Shown: positions 9,715 to 56,460 of the stretch, in pieces
Layout: each line of letters opens with the position of its first letter
Position numbering within the stretch: position 1 is the first letter of the stretch
Assembly (NCBI RefSeq): GCF_001245615.1
Contig: NZ_CWKH01000002.1
Location: 1,240,001-1,304,000 of the forward strand
Source: Mycolicibacterium neworleansense
GTDB taxonomy: Bacteria > Actinomycetota > Actinomycetes > Mycobacteriales > Mycobacteriaceae
Length of the DNA: 64,000 nt
Reading direction: 5' to 3'
The notes under the pieces: generated by a model
Database searches by the model: none
What the model saw: only the letters and a program-made list of their open reading frames with translations
Told to the model about the DNA's origin: nothing
Position numbers and translations under genes: made by a program

Positions 9715-10509
9715 TCAGCTCCACGGCGTCACGGGACGATCCATGCGCTCCCCGTCGACGAATACGTCGACCCGCTCGTCGAAGAAGCAGATGTGGTCAC
9801 GCACCCGCACCGCGTCGATCAAGGGCTCGTGGTACGACCAGGCCAGGTCGGCGGGCCCACCGGCCAGCGAATAGTAGGTGGCCCGGCCCTTGTACGCGCA
9901 GTACGTGACGGTGTTGCTGACGACGAACTCGGCAGTCACGTCTTCGCGGGGAAGGTAGTGGCGGGTGGGCAGCCCGGTCTCGAATAACAGCATGGGACTG
10001 CAGGATTCGGCCAGCACCCGGCCGTCGAGTTCGATGCGGATACGCCGCCGGCTGCGCAGGATGTCGATCCGGTGGAACGGATCATGCGGATGCGCGACGA
10101 TCGGCTCGTCCTCCTCGCGCCATTCGAAGGTCGCGAAGTCCAGGATCAGATAGTCGGCCAGCTCCGCATCGTCGGGCTGAAACGCCGCGGCGGCACCGGT
10201 CTCATCACCGGCGATGACGTCGAACGCGGTGCCCGGACAGGTGTGCGCGGTGAACGGCACCGACGGGTCGAGAAATCCGGGGATCTCGTCGTCGCCCACA
10301 TCCCCGCCCGCCGGAACGAGTTGTGCCGTCAGCGCCGAGCGCGGCACCGCGTATGTCGGAACCACCCGGCGCGGCTCCCAGATCAGAACCGCCGCACCGG
10401 TATCGGCCACCGGCTCACCGCCCAGGCAGACCCGAATTCGTTTGGCAGTGGGCTGATATCGCAGGGCGCCCAGGTTGCTGCCCAGCAGATCAGCCATTTT
10501 CACCGCCAT
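9715..10509 (-). CDS. Protein with two DUF427 domains
   Basis: 264 residues containing two copies of the DUF427 fold, about 20-130 and 140-255. The second copy shows the family hallmarks RHYLPREDV, NTVTYCAYKGRATYYS and a terminal FFDERVDVFVDGE stretch. The function of DUF427 is not established; domains of this type are small beta-barrel-like proteins. A single-domain DUF427 gene occurs separately in this window at 24840, so two paralogues of different architecture coexist here. It stands alone, with the membrane operon 73 bp downstream on the same strand. Confidence 0.88.
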   Translation of the reverse strand: MAVKMADLLGSNLGALRYQPTAKRIRVCLGGEPVADTGAAVLIWEPRRVVPTYAVPRSALTAQLVPAGGDVGDDEIPGFLDPSVPFTAHTCPGTAFDVIAGDETGAAAAFQPDDAELADYLILDFATFEWREEDEPIVAHPHDPFHRIDILRSRRRIRIELDGRVLAESCSPMLLFETGLPTRHYLPREDVTAEFVVSNTVTYCAYKGRATYYSLAGGPADLAWSYHEPLIDAVRVRDHICFFDERVDVFVDGERMDRPVTPWS

Positions 10510-10544
10510 CAGGTCATTATCGACTCCGACGCGGTGGCTGTCTG

Positions 10545-10835
10545 CTACTTGACGTCGACGTAGACCGTGCGCGTGGTGACGGCACTGAGCGTGTCGGTGC
10601 GGCTGAAGTTCGGCCCGGGCCGTACCGCGACGACCGAAGCCTGCTCCAGAGGTGATGAGCCGAGGCGGTTGACGATCACCGTATAGCCCTGGGACTGAAG
10701 CTGTCTGATGGTCTGCTCGGCGTTGCTGGGCCCGTTGGGTGCGGCCGAGGCCACCCCCGCCGAACCGACGATGGCCGCCACCGCAACGCCCAGCGCCGCG
10801 GAGACGATCCGAGAGTTTCCGATGGTGTTTCGCAC
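10545..10835 (-). CDS. Small secreted protein (Sec signal), mycobacterial
   Basis: 96 residues with a Sec signal peptide (RNTIGNSR n-region, Ala/Val-rich core, cleavage near A-S-A-A at about residue 32) and a mature part of about 64 residues. That part contains a QTIRQLQSQGYTVIVNRLG stretch typical of small exported mycobacterial proteins of unknown function. Its upstream region carries copy 1 of a 22-bp element that recurs in front of another small secreted protein at 22139. That suggests common control of the two genes. Confidence 0.85.
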   Translation of the reverse strand: MRNTIGNSRIVSAALGVAVAAIVGSAGVASAAPNGPSNAEQTIRQLQSQGYTVIVNRLGSSPLEQASVVAVRPGPNFSRTDTLSAVTTRTVYVDVK

Positions 10836-10885
10836 TGGAGTGTCCTTACTTCCGATAGTCGCTTACGCTGCCATGTACCGGTAAG

Positions 10886-10930
10886 AACCGGCAGCTCAGA
10901 AGCTTTAGTTCCGATGGCAGAAATTGATCG
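10886..10930 (-). promoter_or_regulatory. Copy 1 of repeated 22-bp element with GGAAC-N18-GGTT promoter geometry
   Basis: Positions 10909-10930 are identical over 22 bp to 22196-22217 (plus-strand sequence begins TTCCGATGGCAGAAATTGAT). Read on the minus strand, the element ends in GGAAC (10912-10908), followed after exactly 18 bp by GGTT (10889-10886), about 50 bp before the start of the secreted-protein gene. GGAA plus GTT resembles ECF sigma-factor promoters, with the conserved 22 bp covering the -35 box and a presumed activator site. Confidence 0.65.
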
Positions 10931-10949
10931 ATGCAATGACCGGATCTGT

Positions 10950-11507
10950 GTGAAGCCAGCGAAACTGGCGGCCCTACGGCTACGGCAGCGCGACGGGATC
11001 ACCTGTGGTCCGACGGTCGCCGTGGTGGCCGGCGCGATCCTGGATCACACGTATCGCGCGGAGTTGCTGACCGCCGACGGCGAGACCTGGTTCGCCGCGG
11101 AACAAGGCCGAATTCACGCTGCCGTCAACCGGATTTGGCCGCGCCAACTCGGAACCACACCCGCCGGGATGGCCCGCGCGCTGACCGAACACAGCGCCAA
11201 ACGCGGGGTGACGTACCGGTGGCGACGTTTCCGCGGCGCCCGTGATTCGCTGACGGAGGTGCGCGGCGCCGTCGCCGCGGGCTGGCCGGTGGCGATGTTG
11301 ATCGGCGAGCGCGGTATCCCGCGGCACTGGGTGCTGCTGATCGGCGCAGACCAAGATGTCGTGGAGTGCTACGAACCGTCGTCGGGCAAGGTGCTGCCCG
11401 TCGAGATCGAGGCAGTGCGCGGCGCGCGGCTGACCGGCCTGGGTTTCCCACGGCCCTTCGCCTTTGTCCTACCGTCGAACCATGGCCCGAAAGTATGCGA
11501 CCGCTGA
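10950..11507 (+). CDS. Papain-like C39-family peptidase-fold protein
   Basis: About 185 residues. It has an N-terminal Cys in DGITCGPT, a His in PRHWVLLIG and an Asp/Glu partner soon after (ECYEPSSGK), the order of a C39/papain-like Cys-His-Asp active site. No signal peptide is visible, so it probably acts in the cytoplasm or leaves by another route. A longer frame from ATG 10914 exists, but that ATG lies inside the repeated regulatory element of the divergent gene. The GTG at 10950 is therefore preferred. It overlaps the next gene by 26 bp. Substrate unknown. Confidence 0.75.
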   Translation: MKPAKLAALRLRQRDGITCGPTVAVVAGAILDHTYRAELLTADGETWFAAEQGRIHAAVNRIWPRQLGTTPAGMARALTEHSAKRGVTYRWRRFRGARDSLTEVRGAVAAGWPVAMLIGERGIPRHWVLLIGADQDVVECYEPSSGKVLPVEIEAVRGARLTGLGFPRPFAFVLPSNHGPKVCDR

Positions 11508-11937
11508 CACCGTAGGGATCGACGAACTTCTGGACTTCGTGCGCCCCCGGCACCACATGGTGCTGACCACGTTCCGTGCCGACGGCTCGCTGCAGGCCTC
11601 GCCGGTGACCGGTGGGGTGGACCAGCACGGCCGCATCGTGATCGCGAGCTATCCGCAGCGCGCCAAGGCGGCCAACCTGCGCCGCACTCCCCGGGCCAGC
11701 GTGACGGTGTTGTCCGAGGAATTCGACGGGCCCTACGTACAGGTCGACGGGGACGCCGAGGTGATCGGCCTGCCCGACGCGGTGGAACCGCTCGTCGATT
11801 ACTTCCGCGCGGTCGCCGGTGAACACCCGGACTGGGATGAATACCGGCAGGCGATGGTGGACCAGGGCAAGTGCCTGATCCGGATCACGCCGACCCGATG
11901 GGGTCCGGTAGCCACCGGGGGCTTTCCTCCGGCGTAG
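11482..11937 (+). CDS. F420/FMN split-barrel oxidoreductase (PPOX class, Rv1155-like)
   Basis: 151-residue pyridoxamine-phosphate-oxidase-fold protein. Features are HMVLTTFRADGSLQASPV near residue 30, VTVLSEEFDGPYVQVDGDAEVI in the middle and a C-terminal IRITPTRWGPVATGG strand. This is the layout of the actinobacterial F420-binding TIGR03618/TIGR03666-like families. The ATG at 11482 is chosen over a TTG at 11464. Members reduce F420 or heme-breakdown intermediates, or act on unknown substrates; the cofactor cannot be settled from sequence alone. It overlaps the preceding gene and is probably co-transcribed with it. Confidence 0.85.
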   Translation: MARKYATADTVGIDELLDFVRPRHHMVLTTFRADGSLQASPVTGGVDQHGRIVIASYPQRAKAANLRRTPRASVTVLSEEFDGPYVQVDGDAEVIGLPDAVEPLVDYFRAVAGEHPDWDEYRQAMVDQGKCLIRITPTRWGPVATGGFPPA

Positions 11938-11980
11938 ACGCCGGCCGACGCGTTGCGTTGACTAGCAGGTCAAACTATAG

Positions 11981-11998
11981 TCTGGACACATGTCCAGA
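11981..11998. promoter_or_regulatory. Palindrome upstream of glycosyltransferase operon (operator A)
   Basis: Arms TCTGGACA and TGTCCAGA are perfect around CA, 70 bp before the glycosyltransferase ATG and next to a TATAGT -10-like hexamer at 11976. Its core GGACACATGTC matches the palindrome at the TetR gene start (15831-15848) at 10 of 11 positions, which suggests one regulator for both sites. Confidence 0.65.
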
Positions 11999-12067
11999 GG
12001 GTTCGGAGTCGACGCGTGAGCGTGTATTCCCAGCTCAGCATGCTTCCGGCCGTCGGGTGATCTGATT

Positions 12068-13312
12068 ATGCGTATCGCGTTGCTGTCCTATCGGAGCAAG
12101 ACTCATTGCGGTGGCCAGGGCGTCTACGTGCGCTATCTGAGCCGCGGGCTCGCCGAACTCGGCCATGACGTCGAGGTGTTCTCCGGCCAGCCCTACCCCG
12201 AGGGCCTTGACCCCCGGGTGAAGCTGACCAAGGTCCCGAGCCTGGACCTTTACCGTGAGCCGGACCCGTTCCGCGTGCCCAGGCCCAGCGAGATCCGCGA
12301 CCGCATCGATGCGCTCGAGCTGGCCACCATGTGGAGCGCAGGGTTCCCCGAGCCCAGGACGTTCACCATGCGTGTGGCCCGGATCCTGGCCGACCGCCGC
12401 GACGAGTTCGACGTGGTTCACGACAACCAGAGCCTGGGCTCGGCGCTGCTGAAGATCGCCGAGAGCGGCCTGCCGGTCGTGGCCACCGTGCACCACCCGA
12501 TCACCCGCGACCGGGTCGTCGAGATCGCCGCCGCCAAGTGGTGGCGCAAGCCGCTGGTCCGGCGCTGGTACGGGTTCGCCGAGATGCAGAAGAAGGTGGC
12601 CCGCAAGATCCCCGAGCTGCTCACCGTGTCGTCGTCCTCGGCCGCCGACATCGCCGAGGACTTCGGCGTGACGCCGGGGCAGCTGCACATCGTGCCGCTG
12701 GGCGTGGACACCGAACTGTTCAAGCCGAGCGATCACCGGGTGAGCGGACGCATCATCGCGATCGCCAGTGCCGATGTCCCGCTCAAAGGCGTCAGCAATC
12801 TGCTGCATGCGGTGGCGCGGTTGCGGGTCGCACGCGACCTCGACGTGCAGCTGGTGTCGAAGCTCGAACCGAACGGTCCGACCGAGAAACTCATTGCCGA
12901 GCTCGGCATTTCCGACATCGTGCACAGCTCCAGCGGGTTGAGCGATGAGGAGCTCGCCGCGCTGCTGGCCTCCGCCGAGGTGGCCTGCATCCCGTCCCTG
13001 TACGAAGGCTTCTCGCTGCCCGCCGTGGAGGCCATGGCCAGTGGCACCCCGATCGTGGCCAGCCGTGCGGGCGCCCTGCCCGAGGTGGTCGGAGACGACG
13101 GTTCCTGCGCCCGGTTGGTGCGCCCGGCCGACGTCGACGAGCTGACCGCGGTACTGGGCGAACTGCTCGACTCGCCGTCGGAACGACGCAAGCTCGGCGC
13201 CGCCGGACGCCAGCGCGCCCTCGATGTCTTCAGTTGGGAATCGGTTGCCGCGCAAACGGTATCGGTGTACGAGATGGCCCGCGAGCGGGCCGGGAAGGTG
13301 ACGTCATGCTGA
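12068..13312 (+). CDS. GT4-family glycosyltransferase
   Basis: Retaining GT-B glycosyltransferase of 414 residues, likely using a nucleotide-sugar donor at the cytoplasmic face of the membrane. It has the N-terminal glycine-rich acceptor region (KTHCGGQGVYVRYLSRGL, residues 14-31) and the C-terminal donor site EGFSLPAVEAMASGTPIVA with the E-x7-E pattern. It opens a three-gene operon: its stop overlaps the methyltransferase ATG by 7 bp. Partners (two SAM methyltransferases and an alpha/alpha-barrel protein) suggest assembly or trimming of a methylated glycan or glycolipid. Acceptor and linkage are unknown. Confidence 0.9.
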   Translation: MRIALLSYRSKTHCGGQGVYVRYLSRGLAELGHDVEVFSGQPYPEGLDPRVKLTKVPSLDLYREPDPFRVPRPSEIRDRIDALELATMWSAGFPEPRTFTMRVARILADRRDEFDVVHDNQSLGSALLKIAESGLPVVATVHHPITRDRVVEIAAAKWWRKPLVRRWYGFAEMQKKVARKIPELLTVSSSSAADIAEDFGVTPGQLHIVPLGVDTELFKPSDHRVSGRIIAIASADVPLKGVSNLLHAVARLRVARDLDVQLVSKLEPNGPTEKLIAELGISDIVHSSSGLSDEELAALLASAEVACIPSLYEGFSLPAVEAMASGTPIVASRAGALPEVVGDDGSCARLVRPADVDELTAVLGELLDSPSERRKLGAAGRQRALDVFSWESVAAQTVSVYEMARERAGKVTSC

Positions 13313-14028
13313 CCGTCGATTTCGACCGCCTCGGTGTCGGCCCGGGCACCACGGTGATCGACGTCGGCTGTGGCGCGGGCCGGCACACCTTCGAGGCCTA
13401 CCGGCGCGGGGCGGATGTGATCGGCTTCGACCAGAGCGTGTCCGACCTCAACGATGTCGACACCATGCTGCAGGCCATGCGGGAAGAGGGCGAGGTTCCG
13501 CTGTCGGCCAAGGGCGAGGCCGTCAAGGGCGATGCGCTCGACCTGCCGTATGCCGACGGCAGCTTCGACTGCGTGATTGCCTCGGAGATCCTGGAGCACG
13601 TCCCGCAGGACGAGCGGGCCATCGCCGAACTGGTGCGCGTCCTCAAACCCGGTGGCTCGCTGGCCATCACCGTCCCGCGCTGGCTCCCCGAGAAGGTGTG
13701 CTGGCTGCTGTCGGACTCCTACCACGCCAACGAGGGCGGACACATCCGCATCTACAAGGCCGACGAACTGCGCGACAAGGTGCTTGCGCACGGTCTCACT
13801 CTCACCCACACGCACCACGAGCACGCGCTGCACTCGCCGTACTGGTGGCTCAAATGTCTTGTCGGCACCGAGAAGAACGACCACTTCGCAGTCAAGGCAT
13901 ATCACCAGTTGCTGGTGTGGGACATGATGGGCCGGCCCTGGCTGACCCGCACGGCCGAGTCGCTGCTGAACCCGGTGATCGGCAAGAGCGTCGCCCTCTA
14001 CTTTCACAAGCCAGAATCCAACGGGTAG
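13306..14028 (+). CDS. Class I SAM-dependent methyltransferase
   Basis: 240 residues, starting at the ATG 13306 that lies inside the end of the glycosyltransferase gene. Motif I is VIDVGCGAGRHTFEA (about residues 15-29), motif II GFDQS, motif post-II GDALDLPYADGSFDCVIASEILEHV, then the IAELVRVLKPGGSLAITVP strand typical of Methyltransf_11 proteins. The C-terminal part is aromatic-rich (YWWLKC), which may form the acceptor pocket. Context suggests O-methylation of a sugar or lipid product of the neighbouring glycosyltransferase. Confidence 0.9.
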   Translation: MLTVDFDRLGVGPGTTVIDVGCGAGRHTFEAYRRGADVIGFDQSVSDLNDVDTMLQAMREEGEVPLSAKGEAVKGDALDLPYADGSFDCVIASEILEHVPQDERAIAELVRVLKPGGSLAITVPRWLPEKVCWLLSDSYHANEGGHIRIYKADELRDKVLAHGLTLTHTHHEHALHSPYWWLKCLVGTEKNDHFAVKAYHQLLVWDMMGRPWLTRTAESLLNPVIGKSVALYFHKPESNG

Positions 14029-14037
14029 GCCGCAGCT

Positions 14038-16385
<2,348 letters not shown>

Positions 16386-16409
<24 letters not shown>

Positions 16410-17003
16410 ATTCGCGGTCATGATCGCCGTCGACGCGGCCACCGCGGGTCCGTAGATCTCGTGGATGTCACGGCCGTCCTCGACGATCAACGCGGTCAGT
16501 TCTCGGAGTCCGCCGAGCAAGATGATCGCCATCGGCTCGGAGAGCCGGGGCAGGGCCGCGCGTTGAAAGCCCGCGCTGCCACTGAGTTCGATCAACAGGT
16601 CGGTCAGATCCCGCAGGGCTGCACGCTGCAGCGGGCGGGCCCGGCTGCCCAGCGCGGGCAGTTCACGGATCCAGCTCAACGTGATGGCCGGGGCGGACGC
16701 GATGTGATCGACGTAGGCGCCCACGGCTTGTCCGATCTGGTCGCGCCAGGGCGCCTCCGGGTCGACGGCGGCCTGGATGCCGTCGACGAGGGCGGCATTG
16801 TTGGCGCGCAGCAGTTCGAGGAAACCGTCCTCTTTGGTGCCGAACTGGTCGTAGAAGGTCCGCTTGGACGTACGGGCGTGCCGGACGATGTCGGCAACCG
16901 TTGTCTCGCGATAGCCCTTGTCGGCGATGGCCGCGGCGAGGCCGTCGAGCAGGCGTAGCCGGTAGGTGTCGGTGGGGGAATCGGCAGCGCTCAGCGTAGT
17001 CAT
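16386..17003 (-). CDS. TetR-family regulator divergent from P450 (Rv0135c-like)
   Basis: 205 residues from ATG 17003, preferred over GTG 17012 because a GGGACGG lies in front. The HTH is at residues about 15-60 (AIADKGYRETTVADIVRHARTSKRTFYDQF). It is divergent from the cytochrome P450 gene with a GGTACC-rich control region between them, and msrA follows the P450. This reproduces the M. tuberculosis order Rv0135c-Rv0136-Rv0137c. It likely represses itself and the P450; the inducer is unknown. Confidence 0.88.
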
Positions 17004-17024
17004 CCGTCCCACCCCCTTGCGCTA

Positions 17025-17078
17025 CCTGGTACCTCAGAGTACCGTACCTCACAACCGTTGGTACCGTGCGGTACCAGG
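17025..17078. promoter_or_regulatory. Cluster of GGTACC palindromes between tetR and P450
   Basis: The gap holds CCTGGTACC (17025-17033), GTACCGTACC (17039-17048) and GGTACC-GTGC-GGTACC (17060-17075), with GGTACCAGG at 17070-17078 as the exact complement of the first element. Such nested inverted repeats in a divergent TetR/target gap suit cooperative binding of two TetR dimers. Confidence 0.6.
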
Positions 17079-17095
17079 ACCTGGCTGGAGATGGT

Positions 17096-18454
17096 ATGAC
17101 CGAGCTGGCAGCAGCTGAGAAGGCCACCGACACCGTTGAAGACGTCGCACCGGGCCGTACCCCGCCACCGGCGCGGGTTCCGAAGCCGTTGCAGGCCCTC
17201 GGCTTCGCCCTGGCCAGGCGCTGGGTGGTCAAACAGATCTCCCGCCGCCAGGGGGACGTCTTCAGCCTCAGACTTCCGATCTTCGGCCCCACCGTGATCG
17301 TCGCCGATGCGCAGCTGGCCAAGCAGCTCTTCGCTGCCAACACCGACGACGTGGGCAACATCCAGCCCAACCTGAGCCGCATCCTCGGGTCCGGCTCGGT
17401 GTTCGCCCTCGACGGCACCGACCACCGACGCCGTCGCAAACTGCTCACCCCGCCGTTCCACGGCAAGAGCATCAGGAACTACGAGCGGATCTTCGAAGAG
17501 GAGACCCTGCGGGAAATGGCGAACTGGCCGCAGGGCCAAGAGTTCGAGACCCTCGAGCCGATGATGCGGATCACGCTCAACGTGATTCTGCGCGCGGTGT
17601 TCGGCGCCGACGGTGAACAACTCGACGAGCTGCGCCGCATCATCCCGCCCTGGGTCACCCTGGGCTCCCGGCTCGTGGTGGTGCCCACCCCGAGCCGAAC
17701 CTACGGCCGGTTCAGTCCGTGGGGCCGGTTGGCCCGGTACCGCGAGCAGTACGACGCCGTGATCAACCGCCTCATCGACAAGGTCGAAGCCGACCCTGAA
17801 CTCGATCAGCGCGACGACATCCTGGCGCTGCTGTTGCGCAGCACCTACGAGGACGGATCGGCCATGTCCCGCAAGGACATCGGCGATGAGCTGCTCACCC
17901 TGCTGGCCGCCGGGCACGAGACGACGGCGTCGACCCTGGGGTGGGCATTCGAGCGGATCAGCCGTCATCCGCGGGTGCTGGCCGAACTGGAGGCCGAGGC
18001 CGCCACGGACGCCAACGAATACCGTCAGGCCACGATCCTGGAGGTGCAGCGAAACCGCACCGTGATCGACTTCGCCGGCCGCCACGTGTATGCACCGTCA
18101 ATCCGGTTGGGGGAGTGGGAGATTCCGCGCGGGCACTCGGTCATCGTGGCGATCTCGCAGATCCAGGAGGCGCAGAAGGAATTCGCCGATCCGGGTCGGT
18201 TCGATCCGCAGCGTTTTGTCGGCAGCAGGCCCGGTCTGGGCTGGTTGCCGTACGGCGGTGGCACCCGGCGCTGTGTCGGAGCGGTGTTCGCCAACGTGGA
18301 GATGGACGTGGTGCTGCGAACCGTGTTGCGGCACTTCGTGATCCAGACCACCACCGCGCCGGGGGAGAAGGTGCACTCCCGCGGCGTGGCCTACACCCCC
18401 GCGGCGGGCGGGCGCATCGTCGTACACCGCCGCGCCACGCCGCTGGGGGCCTGA
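17096..18454 (+). CDS. Cytochrome P450 (CYP138-like, Rv0136)
   Basis: Heme monooxygenase of 452 residues. ATG 17096 is chosen over GTG 17066 because GGAG stands 5-6 bases before it and the earlier GTG is inside the operator repeats. The I-helix motif AGHETT, the K-helix region with E-V-Q-R and the heme loop GGGTRRCVGAVFAN, with the axial Cys, are intact. The substrate is unknown; partner ferredoxin genes are not adjacent. The family assignment to CYP138 rests on synteny with Rv0135c and msrA. Regulation is probably by the divergent TetR protein. Confidence 0.9.
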   Translation: MTELAAAEKATDTVEDVAPGRTPPPARVPKPLQALGFALARRWVVKQISRRQGDVFSLRLPIFGPTVIVADAQLAKQLFAANTDDVGNIQPNLSRILGSGSVFALDGTDHRRRRKLLTPPFHGKSIRNYERIFEEETLREMANWPQGQEFETLEPMMRITLNVILRAVFGADGEQLDELRRIIPPWVTLGSRLVVVPTPSRTYGRFSPWGRLARYREQYDAVINRLIDKVEADPELDQRDDILALLLRSTYEDGSAMSRKDIGDELLTLLAAGHETTASTLGWAFERISRHPRVLAELEAEAATDANEYRQATILEVQRNRTVIDFAGRHVYAPSIRLGEWEIPRGHSVIVAISQIQEAQKEFADPGRFDPQRFVGSRPGLGWLPYGGGTRRCVGAVFANVEMDVVLRTVLRHFVIQTTTAPGEKVHSRGVAYTPAAGGRIVVHRRATPLGA

Positions 18455-18458
18455 GCCG

Positions 18459-18983
18459 CTACTGGTTGGCGGTCTGCCGCTTGGGCAGCTTCCAGCCCGG
18501 CCGCGGGAAATGGCAGGTGTAGCCGTTCGGGTAATGCACCAGATAGTCCTGGTGCTCAGGCTCGGCCTCCCAGAAATCGGTCGCCGGCGTCACCTCCGTC
18601 ACGACCTTGCCCGGCCACAGCCCCGACGCGTCCACATCGGCGATGGTGTCCAGGGCGACGCGCTTCTGCTCGTCATCGAGATAGAAGATCGCCGACCGGT
18701 AGCTGGTGCCGACGTCGTTGCCTTGCCGGTCCTTGGTGGACGGATCGTGGATCTGGAAGAAGAACTCCAGCAGCGCGCGGAAGTCGGTCTGTGCCGGGTC
18801 GTAGACGATCTCGACGGCCTCCGCGTGGCCCGGATGGTTCCGGTATGTCGGATGATCGTTGCGACCGCCGGTGTAACCGACCCGGGTCGAGATCACGCCG
18901 GGTTGCTTACGGATGAGGTCCTGCATGCCCCAGAAGCAGCCGCCCGCCAGGATCGCTGTCGAATAGTTACCCATGTGCCCCAT
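18459..18983 (-). CDS. msrA: Peptide methionine sulfoxide reductase MsrA
   Basis: Repairs oxidised methionine (S-sulfoxide) in the cytoplasm using thioredoxin-type reductants. The 174-residue protein has the catalytic GGCFWG near residue 14, the core GYTGG and HAEAVEI, and a C-terminal CHFPRPGW region carrying the resolving Cys. Start at ATG 18983 has GGAG at four bases; an ATG at 18974 is the alternative. It converges on the P450 with a 4-bp gap, as Rv0137c does with Rv0136. Confidence 0.96.
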
Positions 18984-19009
18984 TGTGCTCCGTGATTACC
19001 GTGGTGGTC

Positions 19010-19414
19010 ATGCGTGTAGTTGCAACTGCGGCGCTTGCCGGTTTACTCCTGCTCACCGGTTGCCCTACCGCGGCCGCCGAACCGAGTCCGGTCGCGGTGC
19101 CTGAGGCACCGGCAGATCCCGGCCGGACGCTGTTCACCGACAATCCGGCGATCGTCGACCCGCACCTGACCGAGATCGAATCCTTCAGCCGCGTCGGTGC
19201 GGGACTGCGGGTCAACTTCACCGCGGGTACCCCGGATTGCTTCGGCGTCCACCCGATCACCGAGGAAACCGCTGACGCGGTCACGATCGAGCTTCGCGGG
19301 GGAACGCCACCGGAGTCCGTCGGCCGCATGTGTATCGCGCTGGCGGTGCCCGGCGAGGTCGAGGTGCCCCTGCGGTCGCCGCTGGGGTCGCGGCGGGTGC
19401 TGGCCGTGCAGTGA
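19010..19414 (+). CDS. Putative lipoprotein, unknown function
   Basis: About 134 residues from ATG 19010; GTG codons at 19001 and 19004 are in frame and possible. The N-terminus is a signal peptide with the lipobox LLTGC, so it should be an exported lipoprotein. The mature domain has two cysteines (DCFGVHP and GRMCIAL) that could form a disulfide, and reads as a beta-rich domain. It is inserted between the msrA and Rv0138-like genes, a position empty in the M. tuberculosis order I remember. Function not recognised. Confidence 0.78.
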   Translation: MRVVATAALAGLLLLTGCPTAAAEPSPVAVPEAPADPGRTLFTDNPAIVDPHLTEIESFSRVGAGLRVNFTAGTPDCFGVHPITEETADAVTIELRGGTPPESVGRMCIALAVPGEVEVPLRSPLGSRRVLAVQ

Positions 19415-19434
19415 CGGGTCTCGACAAAGACCGG

Positions 19435-19448
19435 TAGAACGTGTTCTA
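19435..19448. promoter_or_regulatory. KstR-type operator
   Basis: TAGAACGTGTTCTA fits the mycobacterial KstR consensus TnnAACnnGTTnnA at every fixed position and is palindromic beyond it (six-base arms TAGAAC/GTTCTA). It ends 8 bp before the GTG of the NTF2-like gene, an ideal repressor position, and would control that gene and the overlapping dehydrogenase gene. Confidence 0.7.
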
Positions 19449-19456
19449 GTTTTGGG

Positions 19457-19963
19457 GTGACGAGCAGGTCTTTCAGCCGCGATGAACTCGCCGCTGCCTT
19501 CGAAACATTCGAGCAGACCGTCGACCGGGCCGCGCAGACCAAGAACTGGGATGTGTGGGCCGACCACTACACCGTCGACGTCGACTACATCGAGCACGCC
19601 GTGGGCACCATGAAAGGTCGCGAGCAGGTACGGCCCTGGATCTGGAAGACCATGACCACCTTCCCCGGCAGCTACATGACGTCGTTTCCGTCGCTGTGGT
19701 CGGTGATCGACGAGCCGACCGGCCGCATCATCTGCGAACTGGACAACCCGATGCGAGACCCCGGTGACGGCACGATCATCAGCGCCACCAACATCTCGAT
19801 CCTGACCTACGCCGGCGACGGTCTGTGGTCACGTCAGGAAGACGTCTACAACCCACTGCGGTTCGCGTCCGCGGCCCGCAAGTGGTGCCGCAAGGCCGCC
19901 GAACTCGGCACGCTGACCGAGGAGGCCGAGGCATGGCTGCAAAAGTTCGGGGGCGGCAAGTGA
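19457..19963 (+). CDS. SnoaL/NTF2-like protein (Rv0138 homologue)
   Basis: 168 residues with an NTF2-like alpha+beta fold: an N-terminal helix (ELAAAFETFEQTVDRAA), WDVWADHYTVDVDYIEH, a conserved GREQVRPWI helix and beta strands to residue 125, then a helical tail. Proteins of this class bind or isomerise small polycyclic molecules such as steroids. A GTG start follows a KstR-type operator by 8 bp, and the stop overlaps the start of the short-chain dehydrogenase-like gene by 4 bp. Both features suggest steroid or sterol metabolism, an inference not provable here. Confidence 0.87.
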   Translation: MTSRSFSRDELAAAFETFEQTVDRAAQTKNWDVWADHYTVDVDYIEHAVGTMKGREQVRPWIWKTMTTFPGSYMTSFPSLWSVIDEPTGRIICELDNPMRDPGDGTIISATNISILTYAGDGLWSRQEDVYNPLRFASAARKWCRKAAELGTLTEEAEAWLQKFGGGK

Positions 19964-20976
19964 GCGCCAAACTGGTCATCGGCGCCAACGGATTCCTGGG
20001 CTCCCATGTGTTGCGGCAGCTGGTGGCCGCCGACGACGGGTCCGAGATCCGGGCCATGGTGCGGACGAATGCCAACACCATCGGGATCGATGACCTCGAC
20101 GTCAAGCGGGTCCACGGCGACGTCTTCGACACCGCGGCCCTGCGCGAGGCGATGACCGGCTGCGACGTCGTCTACCACTGCGTCGTCGACCCCCGCGGCT
20201 GGCTACGCGACCCGGCCCCGCTGTTCCGCACCAACGTCGAAGGCACCCGCAACGTGCTCGAGGTGGCCGCCGGTGTCGCGGGACTGCGCAAGTTCGTCTA
20301 CACCAGCAGCTACGTCACCGTCGGCCGGCACCGCGGCAAGCGGTCCACCGAAGCCGACGTCGTCGACGTGTCCAAAGTGACGCCGTACGTGCGCTCCCGG
20401 GTGCAGGCCGAAGACCTGGTGCTGCAGTACGCGCGGGAGCGCGGCCTGCCGGCCGTCGCGATGTGCGTGTCCACCACCTACGGCAGCGGGGACTGGGGCC
20501 GGACCCCGCACGGCGCGATCATCGCCGGCGCGGCATTCGGCAAGCTGCCGTTCGTGATGAGCGGGATCGACCTGGAAGCAGTCGGCATCGACGACGCCGC
20601 CAAGGCCATGCTCCTGGCCGCCGAGCGGGGCACCCCCGGCGAGCGCTACCTGATCTCGGACAAGATGATCAGCAATGCCGAGGTGGCCCGGCTGGCCGCC
20701 GAGGCCGCCGGTGTCGCACCGCCGCAGCGGTCGATTCCGCTTCCGGTGTCCTACCTGCTGGCCGCGGCGGGCACCCTCAAGGGCAAGCTGCGCGGCACCG
20801 ACGAGCGGCTGTCACTGGAATCCCTGCGGCTCATGCGGGCCGAGGCCGAACTCGACCACTCCAAGGCCGTACGTGAACTCGGTTGGCAGCCAAGGCCTGT
20901 CGAGGAATCGATCGCCGAGGCCGCGAAGTTCTGGGTCGGCCTGCGTGCGGCCAAACGCGCACAGAAGGGCAGCTGA
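19960..20976 (+). CDS. NAD(P)-dependent epimerase/dehydratase-like oxidoreductase (Rv0139 homologue)
   Basis: Extended short-chain dehydrogenase of 338 residues. The Rossmann motif GANGFLGSHVLRQL sits at residues 8-21. The active-site region VYTSSYVTVG lacks an obvious Y-x-x-x-K in the usual place, so catalysis may be atypical. The GTG at 19960 overlaps the previous stop (GTGA), giving a two-gene operon with the NTF2-like protein. 3-beta-hydroxysteroid-dehydrogenase-like proteins share this layout, consistent with the KstR-type operator in front of the operon. Confidence 0.87.
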   Translation: MSAKLVIGANGFLGSHVLRQLVAADDGSEIRAMVRTNANTIGIDDLDVKRVHGDVFDTAALREAMTGCDVVYHCVVDPRGWLRDPAPLFRTNVEGTRNVLEVAAGVAGLRKFVYTSSYVTVGRHRGKRSTEADVVDVSKVTPYVRSRVQAEDLVLQYARERGLPAVAMCVSTTYGSGDWGRTPHGAIIAGAAFGKLPFVMSGIDLEAVGIDDAAKAMLLAAERGTPGERYLISDKMISNAEVARLAAEAAGVAPPQRSIPLPVSYLLAAAGTLKGKLRGTDERLSLESLRLMRAEAELDHSKAVRELGWQPRPVEESIAEAAKFWVGLRAAKRAQKGS

Positions 20977-21039
20977 ACACCACGCCGTGAAGTGTTAAGC
21001 CACTGGGCGGCAAGCGGATTGCGGCCTAACCTGGCGGAT

Positions 21040-21858
21040 ATGACCGACAAGCTGAAAGTCGACCTGTCCGGGGCTCCGCAGACCATGTTGGCGACGTTCT
21101 ATGCCAAAGCGCTCGACGCCGGGCTGCCCAACCCGATCCTCGGCGATCAGATGGCCAAAGAGATAGCCGAACGCATCGACTACGACTGGAGCCGTACCTC
21201 GATCACCGAGGCCACCTCACCGTCGGTGACCACCCGCAGCGCGCACTTCGACCGGTGGACCCGCCAGTTCCTGGAAGTGCACCCCGAGGCCGTGGTGCTG
21301 CATCTGGGGTGTGGACTGGACGGCCGGTTCTTCCGGCTGAGGCCCGGGCCCGGTGTCGAGTGGTACGACATCGACTACCCCGACGTGGCGCACCTGCGCG
21401 AGCAGCTCTACCCCGCCGCCGAGCACTATCACGTGGTGGCCGCGTCGGTGACCGACCCGGCGTGGCTGCGGGACATCCCCGCCGACCGCCCCACCCTGAT
21501 GATCGGTGAGGGGCTGACGATGTACCTCACCGAACATGACGGCGTGGCACTGCTGCGTCGCATCGTCGACGGATTCCCTTCCGGAGAACTGCAATTCGAC
21601 GCGTTCAACAAACTCGGGATCAAGGGGCAGTGGGTCAACACCGTGGTGCGCCGATCCGGGGCCAAACTGCATTGGGCCATCAACAAACCAGAAGACATCC
21701 TGCGCGCCGTCCCCGGCACCCGGCTGCTTGCCTGGGCATCGCCCTTCGACGACAAGGTGTTCAACACGCTGCCCTGGCACTACCGCATGATGCTGGCCGT
21801 CATGAAGCCGGTCCCGGTGCTGCGGTACATGGCGCAGTATCACCGCTACGCCTTCTGA
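21040..21858 (+). CDS. Leucine-carboxyl-methyltransferase/TcmP-type SAM methyltransferase
   Basis: 272 residues from ATG 21040. It carries the SAM-binding VVLHLGCGLDGRFFRL and the WYDIDYPDVAHLREQLY motif typical of the PPM/LCM-type O-methyltransferases (TcmP-like), plus TLMIGEGLTMYLTE. It stands alone 63 bp after the dehydrogenase gene and ends 16 bp before a strong hairpin terminator. Substrate unknown. Confidence 0.88.
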   Translation: MTDKLKVDLSGAPQTMLATFYAKALDAGLPNPILGDQMAKEIAERIDYDWSRTSITEATSPSVTTRSAHFDRWTRQFLEVHPEAVVLHLGCGLDGRFFRLRPGPGVEWYDIDYPDVAHLREQLYPAAEHYHVVAASVTDPAWLRDIPADRPTLMIGEGLTMYLTEHDGVALLRRIVDGFPSGELQFDAFNKLGIKGQWVNTVVRRSGAKLHWAINKPEDILRAVPGTRLLAWASPFDDKVFNTLPWHYRMMLAVMKPVPVLRYMAQYHRYAF

Positions 21859-21874
21859 GTTCGCGAACAGCGAA

Positions 21875-21903
21875 GAGGGGCAGCCCATTCCGGGCTGCCC
21901 CTC
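21875..21903. terminator. Strong hairpin terminator between convergent genes
   Basis: Arms GAGGGGCAGCCC and GGGCTGCCCCTC form a perfect 12-bp stem with a 5-nt loop, between the stop codons of the methyltransferase (plus) and the secreted protein (minus). It can act in both directions; neither side has a clear U-tract. Confidence 0.8.
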
Positions 21904-21917
21904 ATCGCCTGTCGGCG

Positions 21918-22139
21918 TCAGCGGTTTCCGCTGTGACGAACGGTGGTGTCCACCTTGGGGACCATCGGCTTGGGGTGCAGCTGGTCGAGCCAGTCCAGGC
22001 GGTCGACACCTGTGGAGAAGGTGACGGAGCTGGGTGCTGCGACGTGAGCGGGCTCGGCGGCCAGGGCCGGGGCGGCCAGGCCGAGAACGGCTGCGCTCAG
22101 TCCGCTTGCGGCGACGATGGCGAATCCGAACTTCTTCAT
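21918..22139 (-). CDS. Small secreted protein
   Basis: 73 residues from ATG 22139 with a clear Sec signal (KK n-region, AIVAASGLSAAVLGLA core, cleavage near ALAAEP) and a mature peptide of about 43 residues, LDWLDQLHPKPMVPKVD, with no cysteine. Longer upstream frames are not needed. Its promoter region contains copy 2 of the 22-bp element found ahead of the secreted-protein gene at 10835. Function unknown. Confidence 0.82.
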   Translation of the reverse strand: MKKFGFAIVAASGLSAAVLGLAAPALAAEPAHVAAPSSVTFSTGVDRLDWLDQLHPKPMVPKVDTTVRHSGNR

Positions 22140-22172
22140 TTTCTGCTTCTTCCTTCCGGTTATGACTGTGTA

Positions 22173-22217
22173 AACCGAGAGGTCAGAGCAACAATTTCCG
22201 ATGGCAGAAATTGATCG
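22173..22217 (-). promoter_or_regulatory. Copy 2 of repeated 22-bp element with GGAAA-N18-GGTT geometry
   Basis: Positions 22196-22217 equal 10909-10930 exactly. On the minus strand GGAAA (22199-22195) is followed after 18 bp by GGTT (22176-22173), the same spacing as copy 1, about 34 bp before the start of the secreted-protein gene. Confidence 0.65.
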
Positions 22218-22240
22218 CCTCATGGCAGTAACAAGTATGT

Positions 22241-22714
22241 TCAGGCGCTTTCGGGGGATGCCCGCAAGCCCAGAACAGGTTGGCGAGGCCCGCCCCGGTT
22301 GAACTCGGAACACCACGGTGAGTGACCGTGACGGTCGTACCAGACCACCTGCAGCGCGCGGATATCGCGACCGCACAACTCCACTGCGAAACCGAGATGC
22401 GCAGTGGGCTCGCTGACTTCGATGAACTCGGCGAACCAGTCATCGGGCAACGTGATCGTGTCGCCAGGAGAAGGTTTGGACTCGTCCACCATGTATTCCG
22501 CCACCGTGTTGAGCAGCTTGCTCGTCATCAGCGGTGGCAGTCCGGTGATCAGCAATTCGGGCAGCCCGGCCTCGCTGAGTCCGATCGTGTAGCCGAACGG
22601 TCTGCGGGCGTGCTCGACGTAGTGCACCGCCCAGCCTCGCTTGAAAGTCTTCTCCCGCAAGAGATCGAGATAGTCCTGCCTGGTTGCCTCGGGGTGGTCG
22701 CAGATCCAGCACAT
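22241..22714 (-). CDS. DUF4262 family protein
   Basis: 157 residues starting at ATG 22714, chosen because AAAGGGGAC precedes it; an in-frame ATG at 22729 would include that ribosome site in the coding region. It begins M-C-W-I-C-D-H, a Cys-x-x-Cys-like start usual for DUF4262 proteins, and has the family segments YTIGLSEAGLPELLITG and WYDRHGHSPW. The function of DUF4262 is unknown. The divergent DUF222 remnant starts 91 bp away. Confidence 0.88.
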   Translation of the reverse strand: MCWICDHPEATRQDYLDLLREKTFKRGWAVHYVEHARRPFGYTIGLSEAGLPELLITGLPPLMTSKLLNTVAEYMVDESKPSPGDTITLPDDWFAEFIEVSEPTAHLGFAVELCGRDIRALQVVWYDRHGHSPWCSEFNRGGPRQPVLGLRASPESA

Positions 22715-55941: not shown

Positions 55942-56460
55942 TCAGCTGTTTTCGGAATGACGGCGGCTGAGCAACACCAACAGCACCGCCAGAACGCCCA
56001 CGGCCACCGCCGCGGCCAGCGGCAACTTGGACGACGAGGTGTCGCTGACCGGAACGGGCACCGGGCCCGATACCGGGTTGGCAGCCGAGGTGACGGTCGA
56101 CTTTGCTTGTGCAGCAGTCTCTTTGGCGGCCTTGGCGACATCGGGCAACGGAGTGACGGTGGCCGGTGCGGGTTCGGCCGGGGGCGCAGCGGCCGGGGGC
56201 GGCGGGGCGGGCTGGGCCTTCTTGGCCGGAGCCTTCTTCGCCGGAGCTTTCTTGGCGGCCTTGGCCGGAGCCTTCTTCGCGGCGGCCTTCTTGGCGGCGG
56301 CCTTCTTCGCCGGAGCTTTCTTGGCCGGTGTTGGACCGGGCTTGGGCACCGGGGCCGGAGCGGGCGGAGCAGGATCCGCGCCGGCCGCCGACGCATCGGC
56401 CGCAGCCGACTCCGCTGCGGGCTCGGGCTTCTCGGCGGGTTGATCCTGCTGCTCTGGCAT
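55942..56460 (-). CDS. hns: Hns, membrane-anchored Lys/Ala-rich protein (Rv3852 homologue)
   Basis: 172 residues from ATG 56460. A Pro/Ala/Glu-rich N-terminus is followed by PAKKA-type repeats between residues 50 and 90, more Pro/Ala sequence, and a C-terminal transmembrane helix (KLPLAAAVAVGVLAVLLVLLS) with a short RRHSENS tail. Rv3852 has the same layout and is called H-NS by its lysine-rich repeats, although it is membrane-bound and has little in common with enterobacterial H-NS. Homology and order (between rraA and Rv3850) support the call. Confidence 0.9.
   Translation of the reverse strand: MPEQQDQPAEKPEPAAESAAADASAAGADPAPPAPAPVPKPGPTPAKKAPAKKAAAKKAAAKKAPAKAAKKAPAKKAPAKKAQPAPPPPAAAPPAEPAPATVTPLPDVAKAAKETAAQAKSTVTSAANPVSGPVPVPVSDTSSSKLPLAAAVAVGVLAVLLVLLSRRHSENS

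Follow-up and report, generated by a model that had tools for sequence, protein, structure and literature searches.

A genus-wide promoter-like block ahead of small secreted-protein genes in mycobacteria, probably marking a regulon

The window, that is, the whole stretch of 64,000 nucleotides from Mycolicibacterium neworleansense that was analysed, carries on its minus strand two small ORFs with a Sec-type signal peptide (recognised by eye), each preceded by a copy of the 22-bp sequence TTCCGATGGCAGAAATTGATCG. As an earlier note on this DNA had claimed, the repeat is exact, with zero mismatches between 10909-10930 and 22196-22217. No third site within 3 mismatches was found in the 64-kb window, and 100 dinucleotide shuffles of the window gave 0 matches. 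It was also correctly described that both copies end, on the minus strand, in GGAA, followed by GGTT and then by the signal-peptide ORF. The distance of 18 bp given there between GGAA and GGTT has to be corrected to 19 bp in both copies, as counted between TTCC at 10909-10912 and AACC at 10886-10889 in copy 1, and between TTCC at 22196-22199 and AACC at 22173-22176 in copy 2. In the notation of the sigma-factor literature, both window copies read GGAAN-N19-GTT. The features are as follows.

10909..10930, minus strand: copy 1 of the 22-bp repeat, CGATCAATTTCTGCCATCGGAA (exact match)
10915..10920, minus strand: proximal CTGCCA box of copy 1 (from the sequence; box kept in the 30-site alignment A1)
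10908..10912, minus strand: -35-like GGAAC of copy 1 (from the sequence; position from alignment A1)
10886..10889, minus strand: -10-like GGTT of copy 1, GGAAC-N19-GTT (from the sequence; GTT at N19/N20 in 28/30 sites chosen by the 22-mer)
10936..10941, minus strand: distal-box position of copy 1, degenerate, GGTCAT for CTGCCA (from the sequence)
10545..10835, minus strand: 96-aa signal-peptide protein, GTG start, class A (ORF; family alignment A3)
10914..11507, plus strand: divergent ORF with its called start inside the copy 1 element (ORF)
22196..22217, minus strand: copy 2 of the 22-bp repeat (exact match)
22202..22207, minus strand: proximal CTGCCA box of copy 2 (from the sequence; alignment A1)
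22223..22228, minus strand: distal CTGCCA box of copy 2, lying upstream of the proximal box at a distance of exactly 21 bp (from the sequence; likewise in 26/30 sites with at most 1 mismatch)
22195..22199, minus strand: -35-like GGAAA of copy 2 (from the sequence)
22173..22176, minus strand: -10-like GGTT of copy 2, GGAAA-N19-GTT (from the sequence)
22155..22166, minus strand: predicted transcription start region of copy 2 (from CAGA 8 nt after GTT in 94/151 sites)
21918..22139, minus strand: 73-aa signal-peptide protein, ATG start, class B (from the sequence and the ORF; family alignment A4)

Neither window protein belongs to a Pfam or NCBIfam family, and the searches with Pfam on members of A3 and with NCBIfam on members of A4 gave nothing beyond weak scattered matches. 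For the 96-aa class A protein, AlphaFold2 predicted a helix and four strands after the signal peptide (mean pLDDT 68.8), and no structure in the PDB matched this prediction at E<=0.001; a PASTA domain (5e10) was considered for the model and rejected as insignificant (E 1.7). The divergent ORF shows a weak Peptidase_C39-like match (DUF3335) with an E value of 0.011, below the Pfam cut-off. With the called start codon of this C39-like ORF lying within the copy 1 element, these bases may have to serve two competing functions. Copy 1, which combines a perfect proximal box with a degenerate distal one, may be a differently tuned member. A plasmid search with the copy 2 region gave no match. Elsewhere in the window, at 56200-56340, a 15-bp periodic repeat array comprises 7 overlapping copies of 42 nt; read on the minus strand, it probably codes for a protein tail rich in lysine and alanine.

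In the host genome (6,287,317 bases in 9 contigs), a search allowing 3 mismatches found one extra copy of the repeat, at C2:523126, which differs at 2 positions. When the 22-mer was searched with up to 3 mismatches in 100 genomes, comprising the host and its relatives, 17 genomes, none of them outside the genus, had a match, and the reversed 22-mer used as control was found in 0/100. Two of the 31 loci fetched first stand apart, namely L015, where the 22-mer matches coding sequence by chance, and L021, which is cut off by the end of its contig; the 30 sites left after removal of L015 form alignment A1, and a sequence-only model, R1, was built from them. In the 6.29 Mb of the host, R1 recovered five sites with E<0.001, namely both window copies, C2:523099, C1:112359 and the weak C2:913213 (23 bits, E 3.5e-4). 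A sixth match, with an E value of 0.2, has no small signal-peptide gene behind it. The same five host sites were returned by R2, a further model based on 104 matches.

In wider samples, searched with stricter filters at the cost of weak sites, the element was found at E<=0.01 in 141/297 genomes of the genus, with up to 13 sites per genome, and in 20/298 genomes across the order, 19 of them within the genus. The site in the twentieth genome (G452, E 0.0025) has no small signal-peptide gene behind it. Within the order, the element is thus found almost nowhere outside one genus, Mycobacterium in the broad sense. The pair of sites seen in the window (10909 and 22196) recurs at a spacing of 11.27-11.32 kb in four further genomes (G021, G049, G271, G529), and pairs 10.7-14.9 kb apart occur in G020, G232, G247 and G284. 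Since the pair of about 11 kb recurs in other genomes and its neighbours cluster in part, it is probably old and syntenic.

The genes behind the sites were surveyed at 181 distinct sites, mostly the best-scoring ones, of which 155 were classed as strong (at least 40 bits) and 26 as weaker. A script looked, within 260 bp of each site, for the start of a 40-160-aa protein with a Sec-type signal. Such a protein lies directly downstream of 154/155 strong sites, 151 by script and 3 by eye, the latter (L009, L098, L131) being of the same kind and failing the charge rule of the script; the remaining strong site, L045, reads into N. Among the weaker sites, 22/26 precede a small signal-peptide protein, 15 by script and 7 by eye (L078, L084, L090, L190, L196, L198, L199). 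Two others, L201 in G247 and L206 in G284 (25.6 and 32.3 bits), precede similar proteins of about 50 aa whose single hydrophobic stretch lies close to the C-terminus and which may be another type of member, and nothing recognisable lies behind L113 and L114. Two controls were run: looking the divergent way from each site gave 5/181, and positions drawn at random from these loci, the genes included, gave 492/3620. By eye, all 29 of the first loci, after removal of L015 and L021, have a small signal-peptide protein downstream, and the same holds for 5/5 host sites with E<0.001.

A search that started from the protein led back to the same block. With P0169 as query (M. smegmatis according to its record), 12 loci on 11 contigs were obtained, and at 11/12 the element is present, its end lying 38-98 nt upstream of the match and its lowest score being 15.7 bits; this test is only partly independent, given that P0169 was found through promoter-led proteins and that L117 and L121 had possibly been sampled already. 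The search of the genome and its relatives that the earlier note had proposed thus finds the element ahead of small secreted-protein genes, and many copies at random locations, which would have told against its idea, were not seen. The idea of a regulon gains from this, with one promoter-like block ahead of secreted-protein genes at five sites in the host and at 154/155 strong sites in the genus.

From the alignment, the 22-bp repeat is the core of a conserved promoter-like block of about 70 bp. Read on the minus strand, the block consists of CTGCCA, a second CTGCCA 21 bp further on, GGAAT, a spacer of 18-19 bp and GTT, and the consensus of the 30 sites of A1 is TTnCTGCCAnCCGnCGATCAATTTCTGCCAnCGGAATTAA...CTGA...GGTTTA. 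The geometry was assessed cleanly on the 30 sites picked by the 22-mer alone, using features that had played no part in site collection. In 26/30 of them a distal CTGCCA, allowing 1 mismatch, stands at precisely 21 bp upstream, and in 28/30 GTT follows GGAA at N19/N20, against a background of 16/397 GGAA in the window. Among the strong sites, the proximal CTGCCA is exact in 150/155 and the box spacing is 21 bp in 148/155. The -35 is GGAAT in 119, GGAAA in 20 and GGAAC in 4 (GGAAN in 143 altogether), GGGAT in 6, and GG[AG]A is absent in 6/155, a count that is partly circular because GGAA belongs to the 22-mer with which the first sites were collected. In 147/149 strong sites having GG[AG]A, GTT stands at N19/N20. 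The distal box is missing in copy 1, L004 and L012, and therefore two boxes are not strictly required; the match of copy 1 to the model starts only at model position 12.

Beyond GTT, CAGA is found 8 nt downstream in 94/151 sites, a position that we read as the putative transcription start region; copy 2 has CATA at this place. TANNNT is present in 1/149 strong sites and is hence not conserved. A loose ANNNT, anywhere between 6 bp upstream and 14 bp downstream of GTT, occurs in 71/151 sites, its best fixed place accounting for 25%, and PMC6448022 reports ANNNT at -13 to -6 in 79% of M. smegmatis promoters. The consensus further shows CTGAC before and GTCAG after the -10, a symmetric inverted repeat (minus strand around 22162-22190 and relatives), which is conserved, does not covary and may be an operator. 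It should be kept in mind that the sites were gathered by promoter similarity, so that their mutual likeness stems in part from selection, and that related sequences are not independent events.

The 151 proteins recognised by script fall into class A (67), class B (45), class C (25), class D (8) and class E (5), with one masked, classes D and E having been set apart by eye. Classes A and C can be aligned over their mature parts. Two profiles were compared, A3 comprising classes A and C, and A4 mostly class B. Their 27 signal-peptide columns align and nothing else does (hhalign probability 98.5%, E 2e-15); several kinds of mature part stand behind one signal-peptide family. The statement that the proteins do not resemble each other holds for the window pair, which BLASTP leaves unaligned (E 0.35), and needs qualifying for the signal peptides, whose family profiles align over those 27 columns. 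The argument drawn from it, that the repeat is not a product of gene duplication, keeps the support of the unrelated mature parts of both families and is weakened by their signal peptides being one family. At E<=0.001, 1370 and 2552 database proteins matched two of the protein families, and the 240 matches listed for both families are mostly nameless or "hypothetical".

At the DNA level, identity between classes is 63% in the signal-peptide region against 28% when shuffled, a value not raised by site collection, and 59% against 26% in the promoter block, a value that is so raised. Background level is seen over the upstream 40 bp (27% against 27%) as well as in two stretches of the leader (31% against 29%, 29% against 29%), and identity reaches 39% against 33% in the last 20 bp before the start codon and 39% against 30% in the mature part. 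Since the signal peptides of unrelated mature families are one family, an old common promoter-plus-leader module is likely. Close pairs of sites, 648 bp apart in G208 and 658 bp apart in G295, together with the single signal-peptide family, indicate that duplication of these genes did happen. At four loci (L068, L079, L082, L091) the neighbouring frames cluster with those of copy 2 (L002), yet the protein is of class C and not B, a pattern resembling replacement of the mature part at an unchanged locus.

As to the sigma factor, the consensus of C. glutamicum sigma-H is GGAAt-N18-19-GTT, and in M. tuberculosis sigma-E needs a C after GGAA while sigma-H takes any base (both from PMC10012870). 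The promoters here fit the sigma-H type, and to this extent the claim of the earlier note that one sigma factor is involved is supported at the level of pattern, in that the spacing equals that of the published sigma-H type and no TANNNT is conserved. On the same source, sigma-E was rejected as sole reader, the required C being present in 4/155 sites; copy 1 (GGAAC) is among those four and could also be readable by sigma-E. The host sigH has GGAAC-N19-GTT upstream, no exact CTGCCA from 160 to 40 bp before its ORF start, and one GTGCCA 24 bp before GGAAC, off the box position. Sigma-F, with GGTTT as the -35, was likewise rejected, GGGTA standing at the right distance only in L003 and L007 (by eye).

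Genes of the sigma-H type are present in 288/297 genomes, and the element in 141, so that sigma-H alone is insufficient to explain the distribution and a further factor, perhaps one that reads the boxes, would be needed for a separate gene set. At E<=1e-40, 139/141 element genomes have a sigma-H-type gene; the exceptions are G302, which has three sites and sigma-H only as fragments, at least 3 of 4 at contig ends, and G318, which is 64% complete. In G049, a sigma-H-like frame with one internal TGA was observed (G049:C4:40088-40648).

The CTGCCA boxes keep a fixed distance from the -35, with the distal one in place in 26/30 sites chosen without it and in 148/155 strong sites, and two such boxes suggest a DNA-binding partner. 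Because they lie 21 bp apart and adjoin the -35, an activator as partner of the sigma factor, as the earlier note had supposed, is plausible. By eye, no linked regulator was recognised in the 25 largest neighbour clusters from 83 loci, in a survey of about 1.5 kb on each side with antisense frames mixed in.

The DNA architecture is conserved, its geometry is fixed and its position ahead of these genes is near-exclusive; promoter activity, the sigma type, an activator and a start point are what this pattern leads us to infer. We consider it reasonably probable that a promoter for a one-genus regulon of small Sec-exported proteins has the repeat as its upstream core and is served by an ECF sigma factor of the sigma-H type and a box-binding protein. 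RNA polymerase with the sigma-H-type factor would read GGAAN as -35 and GTT, 18-19 bp on, as -10, with transcription expected to start about 8-11 nt past GTT. This polymerase would be recruited or licensed by a second DNA-binding protein, bound to one or both CTGCCA boxes, of which the proximal one adjoins the -35. The output would be transcripts of tiny exported proteins with a common signal peptide and differing mature parts. Against this reading stand the strong sites with GGGAT (6) and those that lack GG[AG]A (6 more).

A promoter held in common mainly by descent is an unlikely alternative, according to which an ancestral secreted-protein gene was duplicated many times and its mature part replaced or diverged, the reader being housekeeping or otherwise well known, with no special pair of sigma factor and activator. 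Such a history accords with the single signal-peptide family behind unrelated mature classes (hhalign 98.5%; DNA 0.63 against 0.28), with the close site pairs (648 and 658 bp) and with the alignment of classes A and C along the mature part. It sits poorly with the absence of a conserved TANNNT and with the pattern of identity between classes, where leader (0.29-0.31 against 0.29) and upstream DNA (0.27 against 0.27) are at background while the promoter stands out (0.59 against 0.26, raised by collection). The flanks at background also argue against a plain dispersed repeat or mobile fragment that came to lie ahead of genes by chance, which we find scarcely credible: the identity of the two window copies over 22 bp would suit it, but all five host sites (E<0.001, 6.29 Mb) lie ahead of small signal-peptide proteins, and the position of 154/155 strong sites contradicts it.

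It is also unlikely that the reader is a different ECF sigma factor (a lineage-specific paralogue of sigma-H, for instance), with the boxes serving as operator for a repressor or for the partner of the paralogue. The host does have two more genes resembling sigma-H, whose scores of 251.2 and 177 bits fall short of the family cut-off, and orthologues of one of these two paralogues (L208, G000:C2:481653-482285) occur at E<=1e-80 in 21/297 genomes, 21/21 of which carry the element. This co-occurrence may reflect kinship only, the 21 genomes possibly being simply close relatives, and 120 other element genomes have no L208 match at that threshold. Moreover, G293, G135 and G163 have 7, 4 and 4 sites, respectively, and each a single strong sigma-H-type gene (about 353 bits, the next at 55-57), so that sigma-H paralogues are not required. 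That the block is a cis-regulatory RNA of the 5' leader and not promoter DNA is very improbable; the CTGAC/GTCAG inverted repeat around the -10 of the consensus would be in keeping with it, but no covariation was found (3.37/5 paired positions against 3.34, sd 0.035, with arms shuffled among sites), and no Rfam family reached its gathering threshold in 10400-22700.

The genus-wide promoter-like block is real, and a regulon of small secreted proteins is probable. More tentatively, and with some doubt on our side, the block could belong to a transferable mycobacterial "secretion cassette", in which a stress-type ECF promoter and a dedicated two-box activator are fused to one signal peptide, varied mini-proteins being swapped in, multiplied to as many as 13 sites per genome and co-induced by one regulator. 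A common control signal would give these mostly nameless small proteins a testable expression condition and would let the regulon be listed in any genome; if the reading is true, the element is also a handle for finding an activator that works with an ECF sigma factor. No description of the motif or the proteins was found among the papers listed from the open-licence PMC literature, and a description elsewhere is possible.

Among known systems, the C. glutamicum sigma-H promoters are alike in the -35 (GGAAT in 119/155), the spacing, the GTT of the -10 and the lack of a conserved TANNNT. Compared with promoters of the sigma-H/sigma-R type, the block adds one or two CTGCCA boxes, 21 bp apart, beside the -35, as well as a CTGAC within the spacer and a CAGA close to where transcription would start, and the genes behind it code for small secreted proteins. 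Activators of the AraC/XylS type bind direct repeats 21 bp apart that overlap the -35, and the likeness here lies in two direct repeats, two helical turns apart, with the proximal one beside the -35; the present promoter looks ECF-like and not sigma-70-like, and CTGCCA is, to our knowledge, not the site of any activator of this type. An activator working with an ECF sigma factor is an uncommon arrangement. Multigene families of small exported proteins with a common leader and a variable mature part exist as a general kind, and they are matched here by one signal-peptide family with several mature types (A/C and B, and D and E by eye); the difference is that, in these mycobacteria, the promoter is common too.
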